Below are positions 6,849 to 52,707 of a stretch of DNA of 64,000 nt, one piece after another (the first letter of the stretch is position 1; the number at the start of each line of letters is the position of its first letter). Below the pieces are notes generated by a model. The model saw only the letters and a list, made by a program, of their open reading frames with translations, did no database searches and had not been told where the DNA came from. Source of the stretch: Pigmentiphaga sp. NML080357 (GTDB lineage: Bacteria > Pseudomonadota > Gammaproteobacteria > Burkholderiales > Burkholderiaceae_B); assembly GCF_002188465.1 (NCBI RefSeq), contig NZ_NINW01000041.1:1-64000 (forward strand), in the 5' to 3' direction. The translations under genes were made by a program, and so were the position numbers.

Positions 6849-7922
6849 ATGACGACCCGGCTGGCCTTCGTCGACCTGGAGACCACCGGCACCACGCCGC
6901 AGAGCGACCGCATCACCGAAATCGGCATCGTCCTGGTCGATGAACACGGGCAGCGGGAGTGGAGCAGCCTGGTCAACCCCGGCCGCCCCATTCCGCCCGC
7001 TATCCAGTCGCTGACCGGCATCTCGAACGCCATGGTGGCCCAGGCGCCGCCCTTCGAGGCGCTGGCGGGCGAAATCGCCGCCCGGCTCGAAGGCTGCCTC
7101 TTCATCGCGCACAACGCCCGTTTCGACTACGGCTTCCTGCGGCAGGAATTCCAGCGGCTGGAGCGGCCTTTCCGGGCCGACGTCCTGTGCACCGTGCGCC
7201 TGTCGCGCAGGCTGTATCCGCAGCATCGCCACCACAATCTCGATGCGCTGATCGCCCGCCATGGCCTGCATGTCCATGCGCGCCACCGGGCCCTGGACGA
7301 CGCGCGGCTGCTATGGCATTTCTGGCGGGAGATCCATCGCGAATTCCCGTCCGAGCACATCGGCGGCCTCGTCGACGCCCTTGCCGGGCGGGTGCAATGG
7401 CCCGACCACCTGGATCCGGAGCTGCCCGGCATCCTGCCCGAGGACCACGGCGTCTATGTCTTCCACGACGCCAACGGCCAGGCCCTCTATGTGGGCCGGG
7501 CCGATCGACTGCGGGACAAAGTGCTCTCCCATTTCCAGCCCATGCGCTGGAAATCGGCCAAGGCGCGGCGGCTGGCCGAGCAGGTGCGGCGCATCGAATG
7601 GCTGGAGACGGGAGGCGCGATCGGAGCCCTGCTGCACGAGAGCCGCCTGTTGCGCGAACTGGCGCCCACGCACAACCGCCGGCCGCGTGCCGCGGCGCCT
7701 ACGATAGACAGGCATTGGCCTTATGACGGGCCGGTCGGCATACGGGAGGCCCGCCTCATCCACGTCATCGAAGGCTGGCGTTTCCTGGGCAGCGCCACCA
7801 CCGACGAGATGCTGTACGAACTTCTGGACGGCGGCCGCGCCGGATACGACGCCGAAGTACACCGTCTCCTGCGCGACCGGCTGGCCCTGGTCCCGCTCCT
7901 GCGATTGCGCCCTGCGCGCTAG
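6849..7922 (+). CDS. DEDDh exonuclease fused to a GIY-YIG (UvrC-N-like) domain
   Basis: The N-terminal part is a DnaQ-like 3'-5' exonuclease: Exo I is FVDLETTG (Asp9, Glu11), Exo II is HNARFDYGFL and Exo III is HRALDDARLL with the DEDDh histidine. From about residue 200 comes a GIY-YIG domain, GVYVFHDANGQALYVGRA with DKVLSHF, as in UvrC and Cho. Such fusions occur in bacteria and are often misnamed Pol III epsilon; a DNA-repair nuclease role is likelier than replication. The protein is 357 residues, with AAGGAG before ATG 6849. The tail (LLHESRLLRELAPTHN) matches the UvrC/Cho region following GIY-YIG. Confidence 0.9.
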   Translation: MTTRLAFVDLETTGTTPQSDRITEIGIVLVDEHGQREWSSLVNPGRPIPPAIQSLTGISNAMVAQAPPFEALAGEIAARLEGCLFIAHNARFDYGFLRQEFQRLERPFRADVLCTVRLSRRLYPQHRHHNLDALIARHGLHVHARHRALDDARLLWHFWREIHREFPSEHIGGLVDALAGRVQWPDHLDPELPGILPEDHGVYVFHDANGQALYVGRADRLRDKVLSHFQPMRWKSAKARRLAEQVRRIEWLETGGAIGALLHESRLLRELAPTHNRRPRAAAPTIDRHWPYDGPVGIREARLIHVIEGWRFLGSATTDEMLYELLDGGRAGYDAEVHRLLRDRLALVPLLRLRPAR

Positions 7923-10777: not shown

Positions 10778-11239
10778 ATGACTTGCCAAGTGATTCCCCT
10801 GCGGCCTCGCCGCGCCAAGCGGCGGGCGTTTCCCGTAACGGGCAAGTTGTTGATGATCGCGGTGCCAGTGGTCCTGTCCATGGGCTGGCTGCTCGCACTG
10901 CCCGGCATGCCGCATGCGCAGGCCGGTCCCGGAGCCTCCGAGGAGCTCCGGCAGGACTTCGCCGTTTCGGCGGGCGACCTGCGCCCCGCGCTCGAGAAAT
11001 ATGCCCGGCAGGCGGGCATCCGGCTCTCGTTCGATCCCGCGAAGGTCTCGGGCTTGACCACGCCGGGGCTGCATGGCCGTTACACGGTCCAGGAAGGGTT
11101 GAACCAGTTGCTGCGCGGCACCGGCTACGTGGGCGCGCAGGAAAACGGCCGCTATGTACTGGTGCCGGAACCGCCGGCGGCGGCGGACAAGCGCCAGCCG
11201 GCCGCCCCGCGGCTGGCGGGTGCGCTCATCCCTGCTTGA
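10778..11239 (+). CDS. Stand-alone STN-domain (secretin/TonB short N-terminus) protein
   Basis: The 153-residue protein has an N-terminal basic region, a hydrophobic segment at about residues 23-43 (KLLMIAVPVVLSMGWLLALP) that fits a signal peptide or anchor, and one STN domain at about 59-127 (FAVSAGDLRPALEKYARQAG, then LHGRYTVQEGLNQLLRGTGY). In FecA/FpvA-type receptors this domain lies before the plug and contacts an anti-sigma factor; here there is no plug or barrel and the frame stops soon after. ATG 10778 follows AGGAGA. The end overlaps dctD tail-to-tail by 14 nt. It could be a remnant of a receptor or a free periplasmic signalling domain. Confidence 0.8.
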   Translation: MTCQVIPLRPRRAKRRAFPVTGKLLMIAVPVVLSMGWLLALPGMPHAQAGPGASEELRQDFAVSAGDLRPALEKYARQAGIRLSFDPAKVSGLTTPGLHGRYTVQEGLNQLLRGTGYVGAQENGRYVLVPEPPAAADKRQPAAPRLAGALIPA

Positions 11240-12569
11240 AGTCCTCGGTGCTCAGGCCCAGCCTGTGCATCTTGTCGTAGAGCGTCTTGCGGGGCAGGCC
11301 GAGGAGTTCGCTGGCCGCCGCCGTGCGGCCGGAACAGCTCTTGAGCGCGTCTTCGATCAGCAGGCGCTCGAACATCGTCATCTGCTCTTCCAGCGAGCGG
11401 CGGCCCGCGGCCGCCGCGCATGCCAGGTTGTCCTTGGCCAGCCCCAATACGAACCGGTCGGCGACATTGCGCAGCTCCCGCACGTTGCCCGGCCAATGGT
11501 GCGCCATCAGCGATTGCAACTGCGCGCCCGATACCACCGGCGCCTCGCGGCCATAGCGCATGGCCGCCTGCAGCACGAAATGCTCGAACAGCAGCGGAAT
11601 GTCTTCGCGGCGCTCGCGCAGCGGCGGGATCTCCAGCACCGCGACACTGAGGCGATAGTAGAGATCCGGCCGGAACGCGCCGCGCTCGGCCTCGGCCAGC
11701 AGGTCGCTCTTGGTCGCGGCGACCACCCGGCAGTCCATGGGCAGCGGGTCGTTGGCCCCCAGGCGCTCGAACACCCGCTCCTGCAAAGTGCGCAGCAGCT
11801 TGATCTGCAGCACCGCCGGCATAGTTTCGATCTCGTCCAGGAACAGCGTTCCTCCCCGCGCATATTCGATCTTGCCGATGCGCCGCTTGACCGCCCCCGT
11901 GAAGGCGCCCGCCTCATGGCCGAACACCTCGCTCTCGAACAGGTTCTCCGGCATGCCGCCGCAATTGAGCGCCGAGAAATGCCGGTCGCGGCGCCGGCTG
12001 TAGTCGTGCAGGCAACGCGCCACGAGTTCCTTGCCGGTGCCCGTCTCGCCGACGACGAGCACGTCGGCGTCGGTGTCGGCCAGTTCCTGGACGACACGGC
12101 GAAGCGCCTCGATCGACGGCGACCGGCCCAGCAGTACCCCTTCGATGGCGCGGCGGTCGTCGAGCTGGCGGCGCAGGGATTGCACCTCCAGCGTCAATCC
12201 GCGCTTTTCCAGCGCGCGCTGCACGACCTCGGTCAGGAGTTCGGACGAGAACGGCTTCTCGATGAAATCGTAGGCGCCCAGGCGCATCGCCTGCACCGCC
12301 ATGGAAATGTCGCCATGGCCGGTCACCAGGATCACCGGCAGGCTGGGATCGATCTCCAGCGCGCGGCGCAGCAATTCGAGGCCGTCCATGCCGGACATCT
12401 TCACGTCGGTCACCAGCACGCCGGGAAAACCGGGGCCGACAAGCTTGAGCGCCTGCTCCGCGGACTCCAGCGCATTGACCTCCAGCCCGGCCAGCTGCAG
12501 CGCCTGCTTGCCGCCCAGCCGGACCGCCGGATCGTCCTCGACGAACAGCACCGTCAATCCTTCAAACAT
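11226..12569 (-). CDS. dctD: Sigma-54-dependent response regulator DctD
   Basis: NtrC-family activator of 447 residues. The receiver domain carries phospho-acceptor Asp55 (LVTDVKMSGMDG). The AAA+ domain has Walker A GETGTGKE (174-181), sigma-54 contact loop GAFTGA (221-226) and Walker B GGTLFLDEIE. A Fis-type helix-turn-helix lies at the C-terminus (RTAAASELLGLPRKTLYDKM). It overlaps the partner kinase gene by 8 nt. DctD activates C4-dicarboxylate or similar uptake genes. Two sigma-54 promoters in this window (near 18090 and 31888) are natural candidate targets. Confidence 0.95.
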   Translation of the reverse strand: MFEGLTVLFVEDDPAVRLGGKQALQLAGLEVNALESAEQALKLVGPGFPGVLVTDVKMSGMDGLELLRRALEIDPSLPVILVTGHGDISMAVQAMRLGAYDFIEKPFSSELLTEVVQRALEKRGLTLEVQSLRRQLDDRRAIEGVLLGRSPSIEALRRVVQELADTDADVLVVGETGTGKELVARCLHDYSRRRDRHFSALNCGGMPENLFESEVFGHEAGAFTGAVKRRIGKIEYARGGTLFLDEIETMPAVLQIKLLRTLQERVFERLGANDPLPMDCRVVAATKSDLLAEAERGAFRPDLYYRLSVAVLEIPPLRERREDIPLLFEHFVLQAAMRYGREAPVVSGAQLQSLMAHHWPGNVRELRNVADRFVLGLAKDNLACAAAAGRRSLEEQMTMFERLLIEDALKSCSGRTAAASELLGLPRKTLYDKMHRLGLSTEDFKQG

Positions 12570-14469
12570 CCACAGTCTCCTCCATCCTCGCCGGCCGCAA
12601 CTGCAGCACGAATGCCGCCCCGCCCTCCGGCCGGTTGTATGCCCTCAGGCTGCCGCCGAAATCCCGCACGATGCCGGCGGAGATCGCCAGTCCCAGGCCC
12701 AGCCCCACGCCTTGTTCCTTGGTGGTGAAGAAGGGCTCGAACAGGCGCTGCATGACTTCGTCCGGGATGCCCGGCCCGCTGTCGTTCACCGTGATGGAAA
12801 CCCATTCGTCGGTCTGCACCGTCACGTCCAGCCGCCGCTCGTCGCTGTGCGCCATGGCGTCGATGGCATTGCCCAGCAGGTTGACCAGCACCTGTTCCAG
12901 GCGGTTGCCATCGCAATAGGCGCATGCCTCCTCGGGAACGCTCACCTTGAGCGTGACCCGCTCCTGGCGCAGGCGCTGCTCGAGCAGGAAACAGGCGTCG
13001 GAGATCGCCACGGCGATCGAGGTCGGCTTGAGCAGCGCCGGCGACTTGCGGGCGAACTTCTTCAGCTGGCCGGTAATCTTGCCCATGCGCGCGGTCAGCT
13101 GCCCGATCATGGTGAGGTTCTCTTCCGCATCGGCCTGGCGGCCGCGCTGCAAGAGCACGGCGGCGTTGTCCGCCAGCGTGCGCAGCGCCGCCAGCGGCTG
13201 GTTCAGCTCGTGGGTGATGCTCGCCGCCATCTGGCCCAACGCCGCCATCTTGCCTGCCTGGACCAGCTCGTCCATCGTGGACTTGAGTTCTTCCTCGGCC
13301 CGCCGCCGCTCGGCGATCTCGGTATGCAGGTGGCGGTTGGCGTTGCTCAAGGCCTGCGTACGCGCCGCCACCTTGCGTTCCAGTTCGTCGTGTGCCCGCT
13401 GCAAGGCCGCGCTGGCCGCCAGGCTTTGCGCGATGGCGCGCCTGCGCTGCTGCAGGTAGAGGCCCAGTATCGCCAGGAACCCCATGGCCAGGGCCACCGC
13501 GATGGCGGTGTTGCGCGCCCGGGCATGGATGGGAGCGATATTCGACAGGGCCATGAGACGCCATTGGGTCCCGGGAATCGGCCGGCTCTGCACCAGATAG
13601 GAAGGCATCAGGAAATTGCCCCCTTCGCCGCCTCGTCCCGCCTCGCTGGTGAACTGCACGATGGTGGTCCCGTCCGGCGAGCGCCCGACCTCGGTCATGC
13701 CCAGCGGTTCCAGCGATCCGGCACGGTGGTATTGCCGGGTCACCGCCAGCTTCTCCAGGGTGCGCGCCGACAAGGGCTCCAGGGTCTTGAACTTCCAGCC
13801 CGGCACGGAGGTCAGGAAAATCACGCCATTCTCGTCGACCACCAGGACCTTCTCGTCGGCGCGCAGCCAGGCATCGTCCAGCTTGTCCAGGTCCACCTTC
13901 AGCGCCGCGACGCCCAGCATCCGGCCGCCATGGTAGATCCCGTACGAGAAGTAGTAGCCGGGCGACTGGCTCACCGTCCCGATGCCGTAGAAGCGGCCTG
14001 GCAATCCCTTGGCCGCGTCGATGAAATACGGCCGGTAGGAAAAGTTGCGTCCGACGAAGCTCGGCGGCCGGTTCCAGTTGCTGGCGGCGAGCGTGAGCCC
14101 CTCCATGTTCATGACGTAGATTTCGGACGACCCGGCCTTCAGGTTGACCGTTTCCAGATAGTGGTTGACCCGGGCCAGCCACTCCGGATTGCCGGGATCC
14201 TGCAAGAGCGCGATGACGTCCTTGTTCAGCGACAGGATGCCCGGCAGGTAGTCGTATCGGGTCAGCTCGCTCTGCAGGCCGCCGGCGTAGATGTCGAGCC
14301 GGTGCTCGACCCCCTGGCGCATGGCCCGGATGCCGGTGCGCTCGCCCCAGGCGTAGGCCAGCGCCACGGCCAGCGCGGCGGCGAACAGGCACGCGCCGCC
14401 CCAAACCAGGCGCCGATTGAAGGATCTGCGTGCGTACGGACTGGCGCGCAAGTCTCCACCCATTGTCAT
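12562..14469 (-). CDS. dctB: Sensor histidine kinase DctB
   Basis: Membrane sensor partner of DctD. Two membrane helices (about 21-42 and 320-340) enclose a periplasmic double-Cache-like domain. They are followed by a coiled coil, a HisKA region with His420 in ASITHELNQPLAALR and a HATPase_c domain with NLLGNAIDAM and DSGPGIPDEV. The 635-residue length with ATG 14469 is typical. A GTG at 14532 would add 21 residues, and neither start has a strong ribosome site. It is probably co-transcribed with the Bug gene upstream. The ligand is likely a small carboxylate, but the sequence does not say which. Confidence 0.93.
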   Translation of the reverse strand: MTMGGDLRASPYARRSFNRRLVWGGACLFAAALAVALAYAWGERTGIRAMRQGVEHRLDIYAGGLQSELTRYDYLPGILSLNKDVIALLQDPGNPEWLARVNHYLETVNLKAGSSEIYVMNMEGLTLAASNWNRPPSFVGRNFSYRPYFIDAAKGLPGRFYGIGTVSQSPGYYFSYGIYHGGRMLGVAALKVDLDKLDDAWLRADEKVLVVDENGVIFLTSVPGWKFKTLEPLSARTLEKLAVTRQYHRAGSLEPLGMTEVGRSPDGTTIVQFTSEAGRGGEGGNFLMPSYLVQSRPIPGTQWRLMALSNIAPIHARARNTAIAVALAMGFLAILGLYLQQRRRAIAQSLAASAALQRAHDELERKVAARTQALSNANRHLHTEIAERRRAEEELKSTMDELVQAGKMAALGQMAASITHELNQPLAALRTLADNAAVLLQRGRQADAEENLTMIGQLTARMGKITGQLKKFARKSPALLKPTSIAVAISDACFLLEQRLRQERVTLKVSVPEEACAYCDGNRLEQVLVNLLGNAIDAMAHSDERRLDVTVQTDEWVSITVNDSGPGIPDEVMQRLFEPFFTTKEQGVGLGLGLAISAGIVRDFGGSLRAYNRPEGGAAFVLQLRPARMEETVDV

Positions 14470-14556
14470 TGTTGTCACGCGATCGTCAATGTATCCCACC
14501 GGCGCCCGAAACGGCAGCGGGGCTTGCGTCACGTCCCGGCCGCAAGCCCGTTCCGG

Positions 14557-15534
14557 TCAATCGGCGTAGACTCCCGCGGCCCGGATGATGGGCGTCCATT
14601 TGCCGATTTCGTTGCCGAGGTGCTTGCGCAGCGATTCCGGCTTGGCGCGATCCGCCGTCGCCGCCTGGGCCCCCAGCTCTTCCATTTTTGCCCGGAACAC
14701 CGGATCCTGCACCGCCGCCTGCAGCGCCGCCGACAGCTTCTCGATCACCGCCGGCGGCGTGCCCTTGGGCGCGTACATGGCATGCCAGATCTTGACCTCG
14801 ATGCCGGGCAGCCCTTGCTCGGATGCGGCCGGTATCTCCTTGAACGCGTCGATCCTGGAGGATTGCATCGCGATGTAGGGCTTGACCACGCCCGCCTTGA
14901 GCTGGCCCGCCACATTGGTGGTCTGGTCGCACATCAGGTTGACCTGGCCGCCGATCAGGTCGGTCAACGCGGGGGCCGTACCCTTGTAGGGCACCGTTCC
15001 CAGCTGCGTGCCGATGGCGCTCATGAACAGCAGGCCGCACAGGTGCGAGGCCGATCCGATACCGGCATTCGCGAGGAACAGCTTGCTCGCGTTAGCCTTG
15101 ATGTAGGGCAGCAGTTCCTTGAAGTTCTCCGGCGGCAGGTTCTTGTTGCCCAGCAGCACCATCGGGACGTCGGCGATCTCGCCCACCATCTCGAAGTCCT
15201 TGAGCGGATCGAATCCCAGTTGCCGGTAGAGCGCCGGCGCGGTGGACATGCCGATATGGTGGATCAGCACGGTATGGCCGTCGTTGCGCGCGGCGGCGAC
15301 TTTCTTGGCCCCTATGGTGCCGCCCGCGCCGCCGACGTTCTCGATGACGATCTGCCCCTTCAGGTGCTTGCTCATGATGGCCGTCACGTCGCGCGCCACC
15401 TTGTCGGTGGGCCCGCCGGCGGCAAACGGCACGACGGCTACGACGGGGTTGCCGCCAGGATAGTCCTGGGCCTGGACGGTGGTCGCGGCCAGCGCCGCCA
15501 GCACCGTCATCGGTATCTTGGAAAGAAGTTTCAT
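14557..15534 (-). CDS. Bug/TctC-family tripartite tricarboxylate-type periplasmic binding protein (1)
   Basis: Secreted solute-binding protein of 325 residues with a Sec signal ending near VQAQ (residue 23). The family signatures are VVPFAAGGPTDKVARDV and, later, GTVPYKGTAPALTDLIGGQVNLM. No TctA or TctB membrane subunits lie nearby, as for most Bordetella Bug proteins. In known cases such proteins can act as sensors or co-receptors for two-component systems. Placement between the DUF6351 gene and dctBD makes a ligand-presenting role for DctB plausible, but this is inference. Confidence 0.92.
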   Translation of the reverse strand: MKLLSKIPMTVLAALAATTVQAQDYPGGNPVVAVVPFAAGGPTDKVARDVTAIMSKHLKGQIVIENVGGAGGTIGAKKVAAARNDGHTVLIHHIGMSTAPALYRQLGFDPLKDFEMVGEIADVPMVLLGNKNLPPENFKELLPYIKANASKLFLANAGIGSASHLCGLLFMSAIGTQLGTVPYKGTAPALTDLIGGQVNLMCDQTTNVAGQLKAGVVKPYIAMQSSRIDAFKEIPAASEQGLPGIEVKIWHAMYAPKGTPPAVIEKLSAALQAAVQDPVFRAKMEELGAQAATADRAKPESLRKHLGNEIGKWTPIIRAAGVYAD

Positions 15535-15631: not shown

Positions 15632-17851
15632 TCACGGGCGGGTGACGTCGAACAACAGGTTCTTCTTCGACGGACCGAACGAGATCCAGGTGCTCTTGAG
15701 CGGCTGCTGCTCCACGCCCGGCTTGCTCCAGTCGCAGACGCCCTCGGGGAAGATCTGGCGCAGACGGCTCAACTGCCCGGCATCCATCGCGACCTTGTAG
15801 TCGGCAGGGTCCACCGGCTTGAGCTGGCACTTGACGATGTTGTCCGCCAACGGCTCGCCGGCTACCAGCCGCGGCGTGGTGCCGGCCGGATACAGCTGGT
15901 TGCAGCGGCCATTGCCGAAGGCGGTGGACGGTTCGACGATCTTGGCGCCCGTATCGTCCCAGCAGGCGTCGGCCAGTCCCGCGGGCTTGTGGGCCACGAC
16001 CTTGCGCGCCTTGGGCTGGTCCGAGGTATCGCCCACGACGCCCATCAGCCACCGGTCCATCAGCTGCAGCAGGTTGTCCCCCACCGGCCCGGGCCCGAGA
16101 ATCACGTGGTTGTCGAAGTGGCCGTTGGCGGCCTTCAGGCGCTCGCGCACCGAGTACGAGTGGATCTTGTTGTGGATGTCGCCGTTCACGGCGTTGTCGA
16201 AGTAGTCCCGGTGCTCCAGGATGGCCGTCGAGGCCAGCCCGCCTCCGCCGTAGGTAATGCGCCCGGACTGGTAGGCCCGGCGGATGGCGTCGACGTCGCC
16301 GGCCGTGCGCGCCGCCGTGGGTTTCATGTCCGCGTCCAGCCCGCCGATATTGGCATTGAGATCAAGGAACTCTTCCACCGTGATGGCGCCGTCGTTCAGC
16401 GCCTTCAGCCCGTATTGCACGCCCACGTTGTCGATCGGGCGCAGCGCGAACCCGCGCGAGTCCTTGCCGTAGACGTTGACCGTGTGGTCGTACACGGTCG
16501 CGCGGACGCCGCCGGGCCGGTTGACGGGATCGTATTTCATGTCCTCCGGGAAGCCCGCGGGAAACGACACCACCGGGTCGAGGCGCCCGGCGCTGCCGCT
16601 CATGTTGGCGATGTTGCCCACCTGCAGGTAGCCGGAGATCGCCTTTTTCTTCTCGTCCGTATAGGGCAGCCCGCCCGCGCGGTTGAAATAATTGTTCAGC
16701 AGCCGCGAGTCGAAAACCTTGAACAGCGTGGCCGACGTCACGTCGGGAAAGACCATGTTGACGATGATGCCGTCGAACAGCCCCGGATAGTTGTCCGAAG
16801 TCTGGAAGCTCTGGTAGGCGCCGCCCGAGCCGCCGGTTCCGATCGTATAGACCGGGAGCCCATAGGCCTCGATGAAGCGTTCCTTGGTCATGGCCACCGT
16901 CTCGGACGACAGCAGGTCATTGCAGTTGGAGCCGAAGATATTGAGGGTGGACGTGACCGCGGCGTAACCCTGCTTCATCCACTCGTCGACGATCAGCGTG
17001 CCGAAGGTCGCGCCCTGGGTGTACCAGCCGCCCTGGCAGCCACCGCCCAGCGGATACATCAGCTTGCCGTTCCAGGCCTTGGAGCGCTTGTTCGGGCCGA
17101 TCTCGCCATCGTTGAGCGGGTCGTGCAGCATTGCCGACTGGTAGATGCCGCGGTTGATGGTGCCCGTCTCGAGACGCACCAGATAGGGCACGGTGCGTTC
17201 GGTAGGCTTGCCTTCGTCGATGGTGATGTAGGTCATGTCCGCCGGATAGGCGGTGGGAGTGTTCCAGCGGCTGTTTCCCCCGGACTTATTGCGGTAGAAG
17301 TAGTCGATGCGGGTATTGGTAGAGCAATGCTCGTCCAGCGGACCGTCGAGCGTGCCGCCGCCCAGCCGGCCGAAGCTCGTCGTCGTGCACAGGAAAGGCT
17401 TCTCGTGGGGACCGGAGATCATCGGCCCGGTAATGGGATAGTTGGTGACCTCCAGGGTGGCGGTCGATTCCCCCACCTGTGCGCGGAGCGTGTTCTTGCC
17501 CAGTTCCATGCCGCGCACCAGCCCCTGCCAGGTCGAGCTTCCGATCTGCGTGAACGCGCGCGATACGTCGTTCTTGTCGAGTGTCACGACGGGCGTTCCG
17601 GTTACGCCGGCGGGCAGGTCGATCCGGACCAGCGCATCGCCGCCGGTCACGTAATCCGGCAGCGACGAGACCGTGGTCAACGTCAGGGCCGATACAGGCG
17701 GATCCACGGGCGGATCCACCGGCGGTGCGTTGCCGCCGCCATCATCGCCCCCGCAAGCGGCGGCCAGCACCGCGGCCGCGCCCGCCGCCAAGGTCCATCT
17801 CGCCAACCCGAATCCGCCCTTTCGCAAGCGGCCAGTACGCATCTGTCGCAT
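15632..17851 (-). CDS. Secreted DUF6351-family (esterase-like) protein
   Basis: Exported protein of 739 residues. A basic start and hydrophobic stretch end in LAAAC (Cys33), followed by GGDDGGG and a proline-rich linker, suggesting a lipoprotein or cleaved Sec signal. After an Ig-like region (about 54-140), a large domain contains GTGGSGGAYQS with Ser342 in a GxSxG context, resembling an alpha/beta-hydrolase nucleophile elbow. I recognise it as DUF6351; the substrate is not established. ATG 17851 is chosen because of AGGAGGAAGGG directly upstream and because longer frames would begin within the sigma-54 promoter. It heads the Bug-dctB-dctD gene line. Confidence 0.85.
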   Translation of the reverse strand: MRQMRTGRLRKGGFGLARWTLAAGAAAVLAAACGGDDGGGNAPPVDPPVDPPVSALTLTTVSSLPDYVTGGDALVRIDLPAGVTGTPVVTLDKNDVSRAFTQIGSSTWQGLVRGMELGKNTLRAQVGESTATLEVTNYPITGPMISGPHEKPFLCTTTSFGRLGGGTLDGPLDEHCSTNTRIDYFYRNKSGGNSRWNTPTAYPADMTYITIDEGKPTERTVPYLVRLETGTINRGIYQSAMLHDPLNDGEIGPNKRSKAWNGKLMYPLGGGCQGGWYTQGATFGTLIVDEWMKQGYAAVTSTLNIFGSNCNDLLSSETVAMTKERFIEAYGLPVYTIGTGGSGGAYQSFQTSDNYPGLFDGIIVNMVFPDVTSATLFKVFDSRLLNNYFNRAGGLPYTDEKKKAISGYLQVGNIANMSGSAGRLDPVVSFPAGFPEDMKYDPVNRPGGVRATVYDHTVNVYGKDSRGFALRPIDNVGVQYGLKALNDGAITVEEFLDLNANIGGLDADMKPTAARTAGDVDAIRRAYQSGRITYGGGGLASTAILEHRDYFDNAVNGDIHNKIHSYSVRERLKAANGHFDNHVILGPGPVGDNLLQLMDRWLMGVVGDTSDQPKARKVVAHKPAGLADACWDDTGAKIVEPSTAFGNGRCNQLYPAGTTPRLVAGEPLADNIVKCQLKPVDPADYKVAMDAGQLSRLRQIFPEGVCDWSKPGVEQQPLKSTWISFGPSKKNLLFDVTRP

Positions 17852-18080
17852 CCCTTCCTCCTCGTCTGTCTTATCGTCGGTACCACATTCGATGACGCGC
17901 GTGCCGGCACCGTCATGGCAAGCCATGCGCGCGCCCTTCCCGCCGGGTGGCGGTACATGCATGAACAGCGTGGTGCTGCAGGAAGGCGGCTTCGTGGACC
18001 GCCCGTGTCTCCGGACTCGTTGCGCCGGTACGGCAACGCCCCCGTTTTCGATCTTTTTGTTGTTACGGCGACGATGAACT

Positions 18081-18097
18081 AGCAACCCCTGTGCCAA
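18081..18097 (-). promoter_or_regulatory. Sigma-54 (-24/-12) promoter upstream of the DUF6351 gene
   Basis: On the minus strand TTGGCAC-AGGGG-TTGCT matches the sigma-54 consensus, with the -24 GG and -12 GC separated by exactly 10 bp. Transcription would start near 18070. A sigma-54 activator gene, dctD, lies in the same gene line downstream, so autoregulated activation is a reasonable inference. Confidence 0.75.
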
Positions 18098-18186
18098 GGC
18101 GCGAGCCGTCCGGGCCCGCCGCGCAGGAGGTTGTTTTCATTGATTTTTTTCGATCGACGGAACGCGGCCGCCGCGCTCGGCGGCCA

Positions 18187-18232
18187 GAATTCCGCAACAG
18201 GAAGAAGGAGCCATTCCGGATTTCCGCAATGG
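18187..18232. promoter_or_regulatory. Candidate DctD upstream activator sites
   Basis: A near-perfect dyad at 18211-18232 has outer arms CCATT/AATGG and inner arms CGGA/TCCG around TT, broken only by a C opposite C. The octamer TTCCGCAA occurs at 18190 and again at 18222, 32 bp (three helical turns) apart. They lie about 110-160 bp upstream of the sigma-54 start, the usual enhancer distance. The CGGA-TT-TCCG core resembles, from memory, the dyad described for rhizobial DctD. Confidence 0.5.
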
Positions 18233-18262
18233 CGGCCCGGCGACGCGCGGGCGCAGGAAAAC

Positions 18263-19330
18263 TCAGGCGCCGTCGGCCGGCGGCGGTCCGTCGATCGACG
18301 AGAACAGGTCCCACACGGCCATGAACAGCGCCGCGATCAGCGGCCCGATCACGAAGCCGTTGATGCCGAACAGGGCCATGCCGCCCAGGGTCGAGATCAG
18401 CACCACATAGTCCGGCATGCGCGTGTCCTTGCCGACCAGGATGGGGCGTAGGACGTTATCGACCAGGCCGATCACCAGGATGCCGTACAGCGTGAGGATG
18501 ATGCCCTGCCAGACGGCTCCGGTCAGGATGAAATAGATCGCCACAGGGCCCCAGATCAGGCCCGCGCCCACCGCCGGCAGCAGCGACAGGAAGGCCATTA
18601 CCACGCTCCACAGCAAGGCCGCCTTGATGCCCAGGATCCAGAAGATGAGTCCTCCCAGCACGCCCTGCGTGATGGCGACCACGATGTTCCCCTTGACGGT
18701 AGCCCGCACGACGGCGATGAACTTGCGGAACAGATGACGCTTGTGTTCCTCGGTCAGCGGCAGCGCCTGGCGGATGCGGCCCGAGAGGCTGGGCCCGTCG
18801 CGCAGCAGGAAGAACAGCAGATACAGCATGACGCCCAGGCTGATCACGAACTGGAAGGTGTTCTGCCCGATGTTCAGCGCCTGTGTGGCGAAAAACTGGC
18901 TGCCGCGGGTGGCGACCTCGGCCAGCTTGGCCTGGATGCTGGAGACGTCGACCAGTCCGAATTTGTCCATCAGACTGCGGACCGTGGGCGGCAGCGCCGC
19001 CACCGCCTGCTCGAGATAGGCGCCGAAATCGATGTCGCCGGCACGGATCTGCTCGTAGACCCCCGCCCCCTGGCTGATGATCGCGCCCGCGATGAGGGAA
19101 ACGGGAATGATGACGATCAGCACGCAGATCAGCAGCGTGGTCAGCGCGGCGAGGTTGCTCCGCCCGCCGAACAGCGTATAGAGCCGGCGCTGCATGGGAT
19201 AGAAAATGATCGCCAGGATCGCTCCCCAGAACACCGCGCCGAAGAATGGCCACAACAACCAGCCGAATGCGATGGTGACCAGGACCAGCAGGAACAGAAA
19301 GGTGCGGTACTGCAAAGAGGTTTGGCTCAT
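18263..19330 (-). CDS. AI-2E family transporter (YdiK/PerM-like membrane protein)
   Basis: Integral membrane protein of 355 residues with about eight hydrophobic helices and the family region LLPAVGAGLIWGPVAIYFILTG followed by DNVLRPILVGKDTRMPDYVV. The family includes TqsA, which exports the AI-2 signal, but most members including PerM/YdiK have other or unknown roles, and some act as sodium/proton antiporters. ATG 19330 follows AAGGACGG. The neighbour downstream on the same strand is the DUF6351 promoter region, and upstream is the TRIC-like gene with an 76-bp gap. Confidence 0.88.
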   Translation of the reverse strand: MSQTSLQYRTFLFLLVLVTIAFGWLLWPFFGAVFWGAILAIIFYPMQRRLYTLFGGRSNLAALTTLLICVLIVIIPVSLIAGAIISQGAGVYEQIRAGDIDFGAYLEQAVAALPPTVRSLMDKFGLVDVSSIQAKLAEVATRGSQFFATQALNIGQNTFQFVISLGVMLYLLFFLLRDGPSLSGRIRQALPLTEEHKRHLFRKFIAVVRATVKGNIVVAITQGVLGGLIFWILGIKAALLWSVVMAFLSLLPAVGAGLIWGPVAIYFILTGAVWQGIILTLYGILVIGLVDNVLRPILVGKDTRMPDYVVLISTLGGMALFGINGFVIGPLIAALFMAVWDLFSSIDGPPPADGA

Positions 19331-28273: not shown

Positions 28274-29971
28274 TCACTTGAAGTCGGCGTTGGGATCCTG
28301 GCCGCCCTGCCCCTGGCCCTGGCCGTAGGCTCCGCCCCCGCCGTAGCCCTCGCCATACGAGCTCTCGACGTCGATCTTGATGGTGCTGGGATCCACCGCC
28401 GCCTGGTCGCCCTTGTAGTGCATGACCAGCCCCGGAAAGAGCATCACCGCGGCCACCATCAGGAGCTGGATGACGATGAACGGGATCGAACCCCAATAGA
28501 TCTGTCCGGTGGTGACCTTGGCGATGCGCTTGCCGGTCACCTTGTCCGTATAGTCCTCCTTCGGCGCCACCGAACGCAGGTAGAACAGCGCAAAGCCGAA
28601 CGGCGGATGCATGAACGAGGTCTGCATGTTGACCGCGAGCAGCACGCCGAACCAGATCAGGTCTATGCCCATTTTCTCGGCCACCGGCCCCAGGAGGGGC
28701 ACGATGATGAACGCCAGCTCGAAGAAGTCGAGGAAGAACGCCAGCAGGAAGGTCAGGATGCTGACCACGATCAGGAAGCCCCACTGTCCGCCGGGTACGG
28801 AAGTCAGCAGATGCTCGACCCAGAGGTCGCCGCTCACGGCCCGGAACGTCAGGCCGAACACGGTCGATCCGATCAGGATGAACACGACGAAGCATGACAG
28901 CTTGGTGGTGGTGTCCATCGCCTGCTTGAGCAGGTTCAGGGTAAGGCGCCTGCGGATGAGGGCCATGGCGATGGCGCCCACGGCGCCCATGGCGCCGCCC
29001 TCGGTCGGCGTGGCCACGCCGATGAAAATGGTGCCCAGGACCAGGAAGATCAGGAACAGCGGCGGAATCATCACGAAGGTGACCCGCTCGGCCAGCGCGG
29101 ACAGCCATCCCAGCCGCAGCCATTTGTTGGCCAGCGCCATGATGAACGCAGACAGTCCCCACACCAGCATGGTGAGCACGATGCGCTCGTCCACCGGCGC
29201 CGTATCGTGTTCGAGATAGTCTCCCACGAACGCGGCGATCACCGCGGAAATCACCATCAGCACCAGCAGCGAGCGGCCGCCGCGCGTGCCGTTGGGTTCC
29301 TGGAAGCGGCGGGCCTCCTCCGGCAGGGCCGGCGCGCTCGACGGCTTGATGAACGACATCAAGACCACGTAAACCACGTAGGCGCCGGCCAGCAGGAAGC
29401 CCGGCAGCATCGCGCCGCGATAGATGTCGCCGATCGAGCGTCCGAGCTGGTCGGCCAGGATGATGAGCACCAGCGAGGGCGGAATGATCTGGGACAGCGT
29501 GCCCGAGGCGGCAATGACGCCGGTGGCGAGCCGCCTGTCGTAGCCATAACGCAGCATGATGGGCAGCGAGATCAGCCCCATGGAGATGACCGATGCGGAT
29601 ACCACGCCCGTGGTCGCCGCCAGCATTGCACCGACGAACACGACGGCGATCGCCAGTCCGCCGCGTATGGAGCCGAACAGCTGGCCGATGGTCTCGAGCA
29701 GGTCCTCGGCCATGCCGGATCGCTCCAGCACCAGCCCCATCAGCGTGAAGAACGGTACCGCCAGCAGCGAATCGTTGGTGATGATGCCGAATACCCGCTG
29801 AGGCAGCGCCTGGAACAGGACCGGCGTGAGCAGCCCGAGTTCGATGCCGATCAGCGCATACAGCATGCCATTGGCTGCCAGCGCGAACGCCACCGGGAAT
29901 CCCAGCAACAGGAATATCACCAGGTTGGCGAACATGATCGGCGCCAGGTTGGCAATCAGGAAGTCGACCAT
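28274..29971 (-). CDS. dctM: TRAP transporter large permease (DctM-type), with Gly/Gln-rich tail
   Basis: Membrane subunit carrying the substrate pathway of a Na+-coupled TRAP transporter. The 565 residues exceed the usual 425-440 because of an inserted loop near 220-290 and a soluble C-terminal tail of about 30 residues rich in Gly, Gln and Tyr (YGEGYGGGGAYGQGQGQGG). Family motifs include PFFTLMGLVLERSGMAEDL, GTLSQIIPPSLVLIILADQ and GVATPTEGGAMGAVGA. This longer form matches the mannitol/chloroaromatic (FcbT3-like) branch of COG4664. Its ATG overlaps the dctQ stop by one base. Confidence 0.93.
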   Translation of the reverse strand: MVDFLIANLAPIMFANLVIFLLLGFPVAFALAANGMLYALIGIELGLLTPVLFQALPQRVFGIITNDSLLAVPFFTLMGLVLERSGMAEDLLETIGQLFGSIRGGLAIAVVFVGAMLAATTGVVSASVISMGLISLPIMLRYGYDRRLATGVIAASGTLSQIIPPSLVLIILADQLGRSIGDIYRGAMLPGFLLAGAYVVYVVLMSFIKPSSAPALPEEARRFQEPNGTRGGRSLLVLMVISAVIAAFVGDYLEHDTAPVDERIVLTMLVWGLSAFIMALANKWLRLGWLSALAERVTFVMIPPLFLIFLVLGTIFIGVATPTEGGAMGAVGAIAMALIRRRLTLNLLKQAMDTTTKLSCFVVFILIGSTVFGLTFRAVSGDLWVEHLLTSVPGGQWGFLIVVSILTFLLAFFLDFFELAFIIVPLLGPVAEKMGIDLIWFGVLLAVNMQTSFMHPPFGFALFYLRSVAPKEDYTDKVTGKRIAKVTTGQIYWGSIPFIVIQLLMVAAVMLFPGLVMHYKGDQAAVDPSTIKIDVESSYGEGYGGGGAYGQGQGQGGQDPNADFK

Positions 29972-30597
29972 CAGCGTCCCCCGGCGTTGTTGGCTTGGGC
30001 GGCCGCCGCCTCGCGCGCCTGCGCTTCGCGGGCGATTTCCTCGGCCAGTTCTTCTTCCGCGGTCTTGCCGCGTTCGCGCTCGCGCGGATCAGGCCCCCTG
30101 CCCGTCAGGAAGGCCACGCACTTGATCAGGTGCGAAATGCCCGCCAGCACCAGCAGCAGGAAACCGGCCGGTATCAGCAGCTTGACCGGCCAGCGCACCA
30201 GCCCGCCGGGGTTCGACGACTGTTCGTTGGTCACGTAGGAGTCCACGAATACCGGCCAGGACAGCCACATGATCAATATGCACGCGGGCAGCAGGAAGAA
30301 CAGGACACCGAATATCTCTATCCAGATCTGCGTTCGCTGCGAGAGCTTCTGCGCGACGATGTCCACGCGCACGTGCTCGTTCTTCAACAACGTATAACCG
30401 GCCGCCAGGAGGAAGATGGCGCCGAACAGATACCACTGCAATTCAAGCCAGGCGTTGGAGCTGGTATGGAAGACCTTGCGCACGATGGCATTGCCCGCGC
30501 TGACCAGGACCACCACCAGGGTTAGCCAGGTGACGGCCTTGCCGACAAGCGTGTTGAGCTTGTCGACCAGGCGGGAAAAAGCGAGGAGAGCATTCAT
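29971..30597 (-). CDS. dctQ: TRAP transporter small permease (DctQ-type)
   Basis: 208-residue membrane protein with four helices and the DctQ-type segment WLELQWYLFGAIFLLAAGYTLLKNEHVRVD. The C-terminus is a charged, Ala/Glu-rich cytoplasmic helix (about 170-208), longer than average. It pairs with the large permease encoded next, and its stop overlaps that gene by one base. It is separated from the binding-protein gene by a hairpin terminator. Confidence 0.93.
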   Translation of the reverse strand: MNALLAFSRLVDKLNTLVGKAVTWLTLVVVLVSAGNAIVRKVFHTSSNAWLELQWYLFGAIFLLAAGYTLLKNEHVRVDIVAQKLSQRTQIWIEIFGVLFFLLPACILIMWLSWPVFVDSYVTNEQSSNPGGLVRWPVKLLIPAGFLLLVLAGISHLIKCVAFLTGRGPDPRERERGKTAEEELAEEIAREAQAREAAAAQANNAGGR

Positions 30598-30708: not shown

Positions 30709-31802
30709 TTACTTGCGGATGGTGGACATGTAGCCGTCGAAGTTGCCTTCGGCTACGCGGAACCACGGCAGGACGTTGCCGCGGAACGCCACCATGCTGT
30801 CATAGACCTTTTCTTGAACTCGGGGCTCTTCGCGCTCATTTCGGCATACAGCTTGTTGGCCTCCGCGTAGCAGGCATCCATGACCGGCTTGGGGAAGGCC
30901 CGCAGCTGGGCACCTTGCGAAACCAGGCGGCGCAGCGCAGCCGGGTTCTCGGCGTCGTACTTGGCGATCATGTCGTTGGTCGCCGCGGCGCATGCCTGGT
31001 CCAGCGCCGCCTGGTAATGCTTGGGCAGCTTGTTGTAGGCGTCCTGGTTCACGTAAAGCGATACCTGCAGCGTGCCTTCCCACCAGCCAGGGTAGTAGTA
31101 GTTCTTGGCAACCTTGTGGAAGCCCAGTTTCTCGTCGTCGTAGGGGCCGATCCATTCGGCGGCGTCGATGGTGCCCTTCTCGAGCGCGGGATAGATGTCG
31201 CCGCCCGCGATCTGCTGCGGCACCACGCCCAGGCGGGACAGCACTGCGCCGGCGAACGCGCTGACGCGGAACTTCAAGCCCTTGAGGTCCTCGACCGACT
31301 TGATCTCCTTGCGGAACCAGCCCCCCATCTGGGTGCCCGTGTAGCCGCACGGGAAATTGACGACGTTGTATTTCTTGAAAACTTCGCGCAACAACTTCAG
31401 GCCGTCGCCGTGGCGCATCCAGGCGTTCATCTGGCGCGTGTTGAGGCCGAAGGGCACGGCGGCGTCGAAGCTGAGCGTGGGATCCTTGCCGTAGTAATAA
31501 TAGGAGGCGCTATGGCCGCACTCGATGGTCCCGTTCTGCACGCTGTCCAGCACTTGCAGGGCCGGCACGATCTCGCCGGCGGGAAAGGCGCGGATGGTGA
31601 ACTTGCCGCCGGTCGCCTCGGAGACGTACTTGGCCACGGCCTCGCCGCCGCTATAGATGGCGTCGGCGCTGCGCGGGAAGCTGGACGCGAGGCGCCAGGT
31701 GACGGTGGGCGAATCCTGGGCGAATACCGGTGCAGCCAGCGTCGTGCCGCCTGCGGCGGCGGCGCCCACGGTTGCCTTGGTCAGGAAGGAACGGCGGTGC
31801 AT
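30709..31802 (-). pseudogene. dctP: TRAP transporter substrate-binding protein DctP-type, frameshifted near the 3' end
   Basis: The frame opens with a twin-arginine-like signal (MHRRSFLTKATVGAAAAGG, cleavage near VFAQ) and continues as a COG4663-type binding protein (WRLASSFPRSADAIYSGGE, GWFRKEIKSVEDLKGLKFR, AAEWIGPYDDEKLGFHKVA). At a T4 run (30809-30812) it leaves frame after SPEFKK and would stop at about 30753. The correct tail (VYDSMVAFRGNVLPWFRVAE to the stop at 30709) is in the -1 frame. The span is one base short of a multiple of three, so one lost A in the message strand restores a 364-residue protein. This is a sequencing error or a true knock-out of the last 33 residues. AGGAGA precedes ATG 31802. 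Confidence 0.85.
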
Positions 31803-31879: not shown

Positions 31880-31895
31880 TGCAAAACAAGTGCCA
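31880..31895 (-). promoter_or_regulatory. Sigma-54 (-24/-12) promoter of the TRAP operon
   Basis: On the minus strand TGGCAC-TTGTT-TTGCA has GG and GC separated by 10 bp, an excellent sigma-54 match. It lies 78 bp before the dctP ATG. A direct repeat CTGCGG (31938 and 31946) lies upstream and could be part of an activator site. DctD encoded at 11.2-12.6 kb is the only sigma-54 activator in the window. Confidence 0.75.
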
Positions 31896-50083: not shown

Positions 50084-51061
50084 ATGCACGCAACGCGCCG
50101 CGCCGCCCTCGCCCGCCTGGGTGGCATCGCCGCCGCTCTTTCCGCGCCACTGGCCAGGGCGCAAGACCAAGTGGAGTCATCCCTTCGGCTGGTCGTTCCG
50201 CTGCCGCCCGGCTCGGGGGGAGACAACATCGCACGCATCCTTGCCTCCCGTCTGCGCGCGCAGCTCGGCCAGCCGGTGCTGGTCGAGAACCGGGCCGGGG
50301 GCGACATGATGATCGGGACCGCCCACGTCGCCAAGGCCCCGGCCGATGGCCGGACGCTGCTGATGGGCCACATCTCCTCCATGGTGCTCAATCCGTTGGC
50401 CTACAGCCAGGTGCACTACCACCCGCAGCAGGACTTTCTCCCTATCGGCAAGATCAGCGAAAGCACCGCCGTCATGGTCGTCAATCCGGCGGTTCCTGCG
50501 CGCACGCTGGACGAGTTCGTCGCGCTGGTGCGCCGCCAGCCGGACAAGCTCAGCTACGGCACGGCCATCCTGATGGTGCAGGTCTCCGGCGAACAGCTCG
50601 TGCATACCCGGGGCCTGCAGATCGCCCGGGTTCCCTACAAGGGCGGCGCGCAGCTGATGCAGGACACGGTGGCGCACCACATCGACATGTCGATCGCCGA
50701 CACCTCGTCCTATCTGGCCTTGATCCGCGCGGGCAAGCTGCGCCCATTGGCCACTACCGGCGCACGGCGCAACCCGCTCCTGCCCGACGTCCCCACCGTT
50801 CGCGAAGCTGGCTATCCCGAGATGGAAGTGGTCGGCTGGTGGGGCCTGTTCGCTCCGGCCGGGACGCCGCAGGAGGTCGCGAACCGTGTCGGGGCGGCCT
50901 TGAGGGCCACGCTCGGAATGCCCGACGTGATCGAGCAATTGCGTGCGATAGGCGCCGAGCCGAACTGGATGGCGGGCCAGGAGCTCGCCCGGGAGATGAC
51001 CGCGCAGTCGCAGCACTGGGGCGCCGTCATCAAGACCCTGAAGATCAACGCCAGCGAGTGA
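50084..51061 (+). CDS. Bug/TctC-family periplasmic binding protein (4)
   Basis: 325-residue secreted binding protein with an arginine-containing signal (MHATRRAALARLGGIAAALS, cleavage near ARAQ). Then come LRLVVPLPPGSGGDNIARIL and ARVPYKGGAQLMQDTVAHHI. AAAGGAG stands before ATG 50084. As in the three other cases no TctAB transporter genes are linked. It lies in the middle of the paralogue B operon and likely captures its aromatic or ester substrate. Confidence 0.93.
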   Translation: MHATRRAALARLGGIAAALSAPLARAQDQVESSLRLVVPLPPGSGGDNIARILASRLRAQLGQPVLVENRAGGDMMIGTAHVAKAPADGRTLLMGHISSMVLNPLAYSQVHYHPQQDFLPIGKISESTAVMVVNPAVPARTLDEFVALVRRQPDKLSYGTAILMVQVSGEQLVHTRGLQIARVPYKGGAQLMQDTVAHHIDMSIADTSSYLALIRAGKLRPLATTGARRNPLLPDVPTVREAGYPEMEVVGWWGLFAPAGTPQEVANRVGAALRATLGMPDVIEQLRAIGAEPNWMAGQELAREMTAQSQHWGAVIKTLKINASE

Positions 51062-51072
51062 GCCGCGCAACC

Positions 51073-52707
51073 ATGCCACAGGTCAACGTCACCCCGTTCG
51101 AGATCTCGTTCATCGACCGCCACGGCAACCGGTTGTGCGCCGATGTCTACCTGCCGCGCGGCTGCGATGGGCCCCTGCCTGTCCTGCTCGCGGCCTCGCC
51201 CTACCAGAAGGCGCTGCGGCACCTGCCGACCACCAGCGTATTCCCTTTCGTGGAATACGGTCCCATCCAGTTCTACCTGGACCAAGGCTATGCCTACGTC
51301 ATCCTCGACCTGCCCGGTTCCGGCATGTCGGCAGGCACGTGGGACCCGTGGGCGCGCTCGGAGGGCGAATCCACGCACGACGCGATCGAATATGTCGCCG
51401 CGCAGCCGTGGTCGAACGGCCGCGTCGGCATGATCGGCCAATCGTATTACGCCATGAGCCAATGGAACGCGGCGCGTACCCGGCCTCCCCACCTGAAGAC
51501 CATCGTCCCCTACGATGGTTCGAACGATCCCTACCGCGACTGGATGTACCAGGGAGGCATCCCTATCCAGGGCTTCCTCGGCTCCTGGCTGATCGGTTCG
51601 GTGCTGCTCCAGCACCATGCCCAGGGGCACGACCCCCGGGGCGGCGGACGCGGCGAGGTGTTGGCCGAGATGCTGACGCACACGCTGGACGACGAGTGGC
51701 AACGCAGGCGCGCGGCCTTCTGGGAGCTGGACGCCATCGACATTCCGGTCTTTTCCATCGGCCTGTGGGGCAAGATGTCGCTGCACCTGCGCGGCAACGT
51801 GAATGGTTTCGAGCGAGTCAAGGGCCCGCGCCGGCTGCTCATCGAGCGAGCCGGCACCTTCCATGCAGCCCAACATCTGTTCGCGCAGGAGGATTTCCAC
51901 CGCGAAGAGATCCTTCCGTGGTACGACCATCATCTCAAAGGCGTCGACAACGGCGTCATGAACCGCCCCGCCGTGCGCTACTACGTCAACAACGCCGACC
52001 GCTACGCCGACGCCAGCGGCTGGCCGCCCGATGACGTCAGGGCCAGCGCGTTCTATCTCTCCTCCGCGCGCAGCGGGCAGGTCCGCTCGCTCAATGATGG
52101 CTCGCTACGGGAAGAGCCGGCCGCCACGACCGGCGACGCCACCTCATGGAGCTATCCCGACGAGCAGTGGAACGCCGGCGTCACGGTCTTCGTCGACGGC
52201 CGGCCCGACCATACGGCCCGGGTCAACACCTATACGACGCCTGCCTTCGGCGCCGCGCGCGAATTCGCGGGCCAGGGCGCACTGGTGCTGCACGCGTCCA
52301 CCGACCAGACCGACATGGACGTGATCGTGAAGCTGTCTCTGCTGCCTTCCGGAGGAGGCGCGGCGCTCAAAGTGAGCCAAGGATGGCTGCGCGCATCGCA
52401 CCGTGCGGAAGACCCGGCGCTCAGCCGTCCTTTGCGGCCTTTCCATGCGCATCGCCAACGCGAGCCGCTGGTGCCCGGCGAGATCTATGAAATGCGCGTG
52501 GAGCTGATGCCGATGGCCTTTGCCGTGCGGCCAGGCGACCGCTTGCGCCTGGAGATCAGCAACCACGACTCTCTCATCGCCGATGCCCCCATGACCCATT
52601 GGTACGGACAGAAGGTCGGCACCGACACGTATTACCACGACGCGCTGCGGCCGTCCCGGTTGCTGCTGCCGGAACGCGCGGCCGGCCGCGCGGGAGAAAC
52701 CCCATGA
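51073..52707 (+). CDS. CocE/NonD-family serine hydrolase
   Basis: 544-residue X-Pro-dipeptidyl-peptidase/cocaine-esterase-type hydrolase. The nucleophile is Ser124 in GMIGQSYYAMSQ, and the DLPGSGMSAGTW segment and the jelly-roll C-terminal domain (about 345-540, ending YYHDALRPSRLLLP) are typical. It has no signal peptide, so it acts inside the cell. It overlaps the FAH gene by 4 nt. Such enzymes cleave esters or amides; in this operon it may release an aromatic acid from an ester. Confidence 0.87.
   Translation: MPQVNVTPFEISFIDRHGNRLCADVYLPRGCDGPLPVLLAASPYQKALRHLPTTSVFPFVEYGPIQFYLDQGYAYVILDLPGSGMSAGTWDPWARSEGESTHDAIEYVAAQPWSNGRVGMIGQSYYAMSQWNAARTRPPHLKTIVPYDGSNDPYRDWMYQGGIPIQGFLGSWLIGSVLLQHHAQGHDPRGGGRGEVLAEMLTHTLDDEWQRRRAAFWELDAIDIPVFSIGLWGKMSLHLRGNVNGFERVKGPRRLLIERAGTFHAAQHLFAQEDFHREEILPWYDHHLKGVDNGVMNRPAVRYYVNNADRYADASGWPPDDVRASAFYLSSARSGQVRSLNDGSLREEPAATTGDATSWSYPDEQWNAGVTVFVDGRPDHTARVNTYTTPAFGAAREFAGQGALVLHASTDQTDMDVIVKLSLLPSGGGAALKVSQGWLRASHRAEDPALSRPLRPFHAHRQREPLVPGEIYEMRVELMPMAFAVRPGDRLRLEISNHDSLIADAPMTHWYGQKVGTDTYYHDALRPSRLLLPERAAGRAGETP

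Follow-up and report, generated by a model that had tools for sequence, protein, structure and literature searches.

Organization of the locus

The window, that is the whole 64-kb stretch of DNA analysed here, is part of G000:C58, where G000 denotes the genome of its own strain (5.73 Mb in 59 contigs). Positions 18081-18232 of this window lie between the gene of an AI-2E-type transporter, which is the upstream neighbour (18263-19330), and the gene of a DUF6351 protein, all on the minus strand. The DUF6351 protein (739 aa; 15632-17851, minus strand) matches PF19878 with 783 bits against a cut-off of 22.4, and its gene is followed on the same strand by those of a Bug (TctC-type) solute-binding protein (14557-15534; PF03401, 190 bits), a dctB-type sensor kinase (12562-14532) and a dctD-type response regulator and sigma-54 activator (11226-12569). 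The Bug protein has BugD (2F5X) as its nearest solved structure (E 1e-95). The sensor kinase carries HisKA and HATPase_c domains and a dCache_1 match just under the threshold (44.9 bits, cut-off 45), and the closest solved domains to its periplasmic part are those of V. cholerae DctB (3BY9) and S. meliloti DctB (3E4O). The response regulator combines a PF00072 receiver, a PF00158 sigma-54 AAA domain with the GAFTGA motif and a PF02954 Fis-type helix-turn-helix. An earlier sequence-only reading of this DNA had named the gene line DUF6351-Bug-dctB-dctD, and these identities proved right, with Pfam domain matches for all four products. None of the 25 NCBIfam equivalog families listed for DctB (of 80) reached its cut-off (best 158 vs 1000), nor did any of the 25 listed for DctD (of 107; best 402 vs 558.6).

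No dctA or TRAP permease gene was found within the operon or directly beside it, and no tctA or tctB among the operon neighbours (by eye, with Pfam for four neighbours). Downstream, a free-standing protein with an STN (secretin/TonB N-terminal) domain is encoded at 10778-11239 on the plus strand, convergent with dctD, and has 79-81% matches in four relatives (L004, L005, L007 and G196; locus labels are L004 for G190, L005 for G192, L006 for G197, L007 for G195, L062 for G196 and L153 for G086). The genome holds a very large Bug set: at least 150 places match the operon Bug at E 1e-40 or better (the best 150 of 311 candidates).

The promoter described below and the start of DUF6351 delimit a presumed 5' leader of ~218 nt (17852-18069, minus strand). 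The promoter-to-ATG distance is 246 bp in the window vs 72-73 bp in L004-L007, the leader being ~174 bp longer in the window; its part 17865-18060 is single-copy in the window's genome. A search of 17500-18400 against Rfam gave no match up to the gathering score; the one hit, to a CRISPR-repeat model, had 19.1 bits against a cut-off of 42 (E 0.49) and was taken as chance.

The sigma-54 promoter element

Promoters read by sigma-54 polymerase have GG and GC doublets 10 bp apart in the consensus TGGCAC-N5-TTGCW. The full -24/-12 element announced by the sequence-only reading is present: TGGCACAGGGGTTGCT, on the minus strand from 18096 to 18081, matches this consensus exactly, with GG at 18095-18094, GC at 18083-18082 and 10 bp between them. 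Transcription would presumably start near 18070, as a rule of thumb. The exact pattern TGGCACN5TTGCW occurs twice in the 64-kb window, where 0.05 occurrences are expected, and none of 100 shuffles reached two. At up to two mismatches the number of matches does not exceed the chance expectation (28 vs 30.17 expected), so that only the exact match lends weight to the promoter. Across the genome, which encodes RpoN, TGGCACN5TTGCW was found 13 times vs 2 for the reversed control and TGGCATN5TTGCW 7 times vs 1. Moreover, TGGCA(C/T)N5TTGCT precedes the operon in all seven further genomes in which we read the upstream region (L004-L007, G196, G193 and G194).

The second perfect element of the window, TGGCACTTGTTTTGCA (31880-31895, minus strand), lies 77 bp before a TRAP transporter set, also on the minus strand, that comprises DctP (30753-31802) and DctM (28274-29971), both by Pfam, and a DctQ-like gene (29971-30597, by eye). 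It falls within the 3'-terminal part of a MATE-like gene (by eye). Since no activator site of the operon type was found upstream of the TRAP set, this element is probably served by another activator.

Paired candidate activator sites upstream of the promoter

Upstream of the -24/-12 element are two candidate activator sites with a 32-bp spacing: TTGCGGAAATCCGG, which starts 133 bp from the element, and TTGCGGAATTCTGG, which starts 101 bp from it. On the minus strand the distal one reads TTGCGGAAATCCGGAA (18214-18229) and the proximal one TTGCGGAATTCTGGCC (18182-18197), which places them ~112-159 bp upstream of the expected start. The details given in the sequence-only reading, a dyad with the core CGGA-TT-TCCG and an octamer repeated at a distance of 32 bp, were all recovered: the core lies at 18217-18226 on the plus strand, and the octamer TTCCGCAA occupies 18190-18197 and recurs precisely 32 bp further on, at 18222-18229. 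The distal dyad extends beyond what that reading described, spanning 24 bp (18210-18233), and is self-complementary at 20 of 24 positions in the window and at 22 of 24 in the relatives. The proximal site forms no dyad by itself, with 4 of 18 self-complementary positions in the window (TTGCGGAATTCTGGCCGC) and 10 of 18 in the relatives (GGCGGAATTCTGGCCGCC).

The 12-nt core of the distal site, TGCGGAAATCCG, is identical to the core of the R. meliloti DctD site, published as TGTGCGgaaatCCGCACA (as quoted in an excerpt of PMC11077940), and occurs once in the window. Both sites also fit the CGG-N4-C(C/T)G shape of the consensus for AauR, TTCGG-N4-CCGAA, two copies of which are described upstream of a -12/-24 promoter (excerpt of PMC7962211). 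A pair of upstream sites like TGTGCGgnnntCCGCACA or CGG-N4-CCG is thus found here, as seen from the identity of the 12-nt core, the 32-bp pairing and the register. Scored against the full 18-bp R. meliloti consensus, the distal site of the window reaches 10 of 14, which is not significant alone: 1608 of 5000 first-order resampled upstreams reached the same score, and three of 19 other sigma-54 upstreams scored 11, above the distal site. The assignment to DctD is drawn from the identity of TGCGGAAATCCG to the R. meliloti core, its single occurrence in the window and the conserved register.

The shared pattern TTGCGGAANTCYGG, with at most one mismatch, was found twice in the window, both times exactly and at the sites, against 0.15 expected, and one of 100 shuffles reached two; this enrichment is partly circular because the pattern was drawn from the two sites, and conservation provides the independent test. 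The distal site is the genome's best match to the 16-mer of the relatives (one mismatch). Matches to this 16-mer with up to three mismatches are hardly above the reversed control (59 vs 48 genome-wide).

Conservation in related genomes

The intergenic region was aligned across five genomes of the genus (L004, L005, L006, L007 and G196). Within the two sites 31 of 32 columns are invariant, vs 66 of the 118 other gap-free intergenic columns (Fisher P 2.6e-6), the distal site contributing 16/16 and the proximal site 15/16. When the window's own sequence is added, the counts become 29 of 32 and 37 of 118, respectively. The exact form TTGCGGAATTCCGGAAC is present in 5 of 11 genus genomes and there at the operon locus only; the site of the window differs from it at two positions. 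A third conserved block, CAATGAAAACA (18132-18142, minus strand), lies between the sites and the promoter and is invariant in all six aligned genomes; it was not seen in the printed upstreams of G193 and G194, and it is perhaps a site for a DNA-bending protein.

In G193 and G194 the promoter reads TGGCA(T/C)GACCATTGCT and the upstream neighbour differs, no AI-2E gene having been found in the fetched 12.5 kb. When the R. meliloti DctD consensus was slid along the 260 bp upstream (243 positions), the two top scores in both genomes fell at -135 and -103 relative to the -24 element (11 and 10 in G193; both 10 in G194), which is the window's own register for the 18-bp consensus. The two genomes count as about one observation because they are close relatives. 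The C-terminal helix-turn-helix of DctD is nearly identical between the two forms of the operon. At locus L054 the gene upstream is divergent and exonuclease-like (by eye). The conservation of the dyads, on which the sequence-only reading had staked its promoter, is thus borne out, both in the invariant columns of the five genomes and in the positions kept in G193 and G194.

A chance resemblance with no function would draw on the frequency of partial matches in GC-rich DNA. It is contradicted by the exactness, the register and the conservation of promoter and sites, and we regard its probability as negligible.

The distal dyad starts 29 nt past the stop codon of the AI-2E gene, which would also suit an RNA hairpin that terminates or shields the AI-2E transcript, in addition to an enhancer or in its place. 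Indeed, the four relatives that were folded gave -31.5 to -36.9 kcal/mol with z from -2.65 to -3.63. One outer pair of the dyad changes symmetrically, from GCCATT/AATGGC in the window to GCCGTT/AACGGC in the relatives, a symmetry that a hairpin and a dimeric protein would each require. However, no T run follows the dyad, the terminator scan does not list it and reports instead a weak candidate at 18285-18268, and the window's own sequence folds little better than shuffled versions of it (z -0.89; matched by 37 of 200). A hairpin would, moreover, leave the proximal site, the 32-bp spacing and the positions in G193 and G194 unexplained. We consider it improbable that the dyad is such a hairpin and not an enhancer; it may additionally act where the AI-2E transcript ends.

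Taken together, the view of the sequence-only reading that a DctD-type site pair and a sigma-54 promoter control the DUF6351-Bug-dctB-dctD unit is well supported by conservation in five genomes, the register kept in two more, the R. meliloti core and the AauR-like shape, and the unit is predicted to be under this control.

Specificity of the sites within the genome

Twenty strong sigma-54 sites (TGGCAYN5TTGCW; 13 TGGCAC and 7 TGGCAT) were examined for TTGCGGAANTCYGG within 260 bp. At two mismatches or fewer the pattern accompanies one of them, the DUF6351 promoter; the other 19 have no activator site at this threshold, all standing at three mismatches or more. As no second promoter with such sites was found among these 20, the circuit looks dedicated to the DUF6351-bug-dctBD operon, by tests that would miss weak or degenerate targets. 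The recurring sequence TCGCGGATTTCCGGAAC of G190, G192 and G195 was considered as a second target and rejected, as it lies inside an open reading frame.

The sigma-54 promoter might also be served by another enhancer-binding protein, with DctD acting elsewhere. The genome does encode at least one more DctD-like protein, 52% identical and beside a DctA-like gene (by eye; G000:C4). Yet the sites occur at only this one of the 20 strong promoters, they accompany dctBD in all eight genomes whose upstream region was read, and they resemble the sites of DctD and AauR, so that we hold a foreign activator to be very improbable. The operon's own DctD is the preferred candidate.

Variation of the operon across genomes

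The complete order DUF6351-Bug-dctB-dctD, for which the sequence-only reading had suggested a search of homologous clusters, was found in 4 of 11 genus genomes (G000, G190, G192 and G195); in others either DUF6351 or Bug is missing. In G197 the line DUF6351-Bug-dctB is cut at about residue 612 of DctB (about 11401 of L006), and dctD lies ~0.87 Mb away on the other strand, because of either an inversion or an assembly error; this assembly has 8% contamination, and locus L006 is without DctD. G196 has Bug-dctB-dctD, its DUF6351 being reduced to the last 49-65 recognisable residues with one stop (L062, about 7012-7400), and it retains the promoter and both sites despite the loss of most of DUF6351. 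Bug-dctB-dctD was also found in G198, where no DUF6351 ortholog was found in an assembly of 340 contigs with 95% completeness and where the promoter is not visible because the contig starts 82 bp before bug. Conversely, G193 and G194 carry DUF6351-dctB-dctD and no operonic Bug, the best Bug of those genomes being 55-56% identical. G189 has only distant forms of DUF6351 (43%), DctB (39%) and DctD (61%), with DUF6351 apart from dctBD, and G191 gave no match to the operon proteins at the thresholds used.

Orthologs of dctB (at least 67% identity) are thus present in 9 of 11 genus genomes, each of which keeps DUF6351 or Bug or both. The two effectors can be lost independently of each other: some lineages lack DUF6351, others Bug, and none of the nine dctB carriers lacks both. 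Since each is missing in two genomes that keep dctBD, neither DUF6351 nor Bug is indispensable to the sensor. The dN/dS values of Bug, DctB and DctD between G196 and L004-L007 are low (0.04-0.12), like those of pairs without G196, and indicate that the sensor and Bug stayed under selection, although part of the branches may predate the loss.

Outside the genus, DUF6351 was found at 74-75% in three genomes from another genus of the family (G079, G080 and G090); the fetched 12.5 kb around it contained no bug or dctBD, and the 750-800 bp of upstream sequence read showed no convincing sigma-54 element. Among 399 genomes drawn from the order, DUF6351 at E 1e-120 or better was found, besides the window's own, in G406 and G611 only, and the 1.5-kb flanks fetched for these two lacked dctBD. 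The window's genome encodes a second DUF6351 protein, a paralog with 38% identity (G000:C23:25396-27606), and 37-38% matches occur in 7 of 11 genus genomes.

The DUF6351 protein

By inspection, the N-terminus of DUF6351 has a signal sequence, the motif AAAC|GGD and then a low-complexity linker, as in lipoproteins. S342, within G-x-S342-G-G (GTGGSGG in the window), D474 and H560 are invariant in all 16 aligned homologs, and their order would fit the triad of an alpha/beta-hydrolase. As far as such sequence features allow, DUF6351 is probably an exported serine hydrolase. Its Pfam description is tannase-like, and in G406 the DUF6351 gene lies directly downstream of a PF07519 tannase gene. No DUF6351 member (0/16) matched PF07519, even at E 1, and the search of solved structures found no relative by sequence (best E 0.093 with the protein and 0.019 with the 16-row profile). 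Structure prediction from five sequences, 88-89% identical to the first, gave a pLDDT of 31.9, too low for a usable fold. In the open-licence literature we found no described function of DUF6351, one incidental mention apart, nothing on a Bug protein with DctBD in this arrangement and nothing relevant on Pigmentiphaga tannases.

Hydrolases of the S15/CocE type were observed at two other places: upstream of a dctBD pair in G086 (L153, 8677-10509, minus strand; DctB 46% identical) and in the window itself (50171-52707, plus strand), where the gene adjoins a Bug-like gene.

Proposed function of the operon

The stretch 18081-18232 probably holds the control elements of one operon for carboxylate scavenging, which would regulate itself in the manner of DctBD/AauSR systems and carry a new cargo. 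DctB, judged by its family, would sense a small periplasmic carboxylate and phosphorylate DctD, which would bind the putative sites beginning at -133 and -101 and loop onto the sigma-54 polymerase at the -24/-12 element, so that DUF6351, bug, dctB and dctD would be turned on together. Indeed, carboxylate binding is predicted for the dCache domains of DctB, AauS and MifS (excerpt of PMC8694187). The output would be carboxylate acquisition; more tentatively, DUF6351 may release the acid from an ester, and the BugD-like protein may capture it for permeases encoded elsewhere and/or present it to DctB. DctBD of this soil-type bacterium would thus very probably switch on its own operon, including a secreted enzyme and a binding protein.

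The sequence-only reading went further and proposed a self-inducing loop: DUF6351 would cleave an ester outside the cell, Bug and DctB would recognise the released acid as inducer, and the operon would thereby feed its own induction. The gene order, the tannase-like character of DUF6351 with its invariant Ser, Asp and His, and its place beside the PF07519 gene in G406 speak for it. Precedents are the AauSR system of Pseudomonas, for which a periplasmic hydrolase has been described whose product may serve as the signal (excerpt of PMC7962211), and BctC-BctE, in which a Bug protein acts with a sensor kinase (excerpt of PMC5812351); in G225, an asparaginase gene and ABC-transporter-like genes precede a DctB/DctD-like pair. 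Nevertheless, bug-dctBD persist where DUF6351 is mostly deleted (G196) or was not found (G198), the operon of G193 and G194 has no Bug, and DUF6351 of G079, G080 and G090 stands with neither bug, dctBD nor a convincing sigma-54 element nearby. These genomes tell against the claim that the DUF6351 product is the ligand of Bug and DctB, and such a loop is conceivable but doubtful. The fully closed circuit, in which a polymer or ester would be detected, broken down by exported DUF6351 as an esterase and captured as an acid that Bug carries and that induces DctB, seems rather unlikely; if it were true, the partner losses in some lineages would represent a switch to sensing the free acid only.

The promoter, with its apparently dedicated regulator, gives a handle on DUF6351 and Bug, as the inducing acid is likely the DctB ligand and connected with both proteins. 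To our knowledge, many Bug proteins have no known ligand. Bug proteins have been reviewed (PMC5812351).

Comparison with known systems

DUF6351 resembles the tannase and feruloyl esterase family PF07519 in its Pfam description and its G-x-S-G-G serine motif, and differs from it in that the 16 members lack a PF07519 match. The Bug component recalls BctC-BctDE of Bordetella pertussis, where a Bug/TctC protein is linked to a two-component system and citrate-bound BctC is needed for BctDE signalling (review PMC5812351, in excerpt). BctC is, however, encoded with the permease BctBA, and bctDE form a separate operon (same source), whereas Bug of the present locus has no adjacent permease genes and shares its gene line and orientation with dctBD.

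With DctBD-dctA of Rhizobium the operon shares the TGCGGAAATCCG core and the paired sites (PMC11077940, in excerpt), as well as the closest solved periplasmic domains of DctB. The target there is dctA, the C4-dicarboxylate permease gene; in G000 a DctA-like gene has its own dctBD-like pair at another locus (G000:C4, by eye). The AauSR/aatJ promoter of Pseudomonas, serving acidic amino acid utilisation, is alike in its DctBD-type pair, its sigma-54 promoter and its two CGG-N4-CCG-type sites, and also in a possible co-expression with a periplasmic hydrolase, there AnsB, which makes the sensed amino acid (PMC7962211, in excerpt). It differs in that its target is an ABC transporter operon, whereas here the activator would target the operon that encodes it, which contains DUF6351 and Bug but no transporter gene. 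Our analysis adds a case of a DctBD pair that apparently drives its own operon only, with a hydrolase and a binding protein but no transporter: the switch of this operon is of a known kind, and its cargo is what is new.
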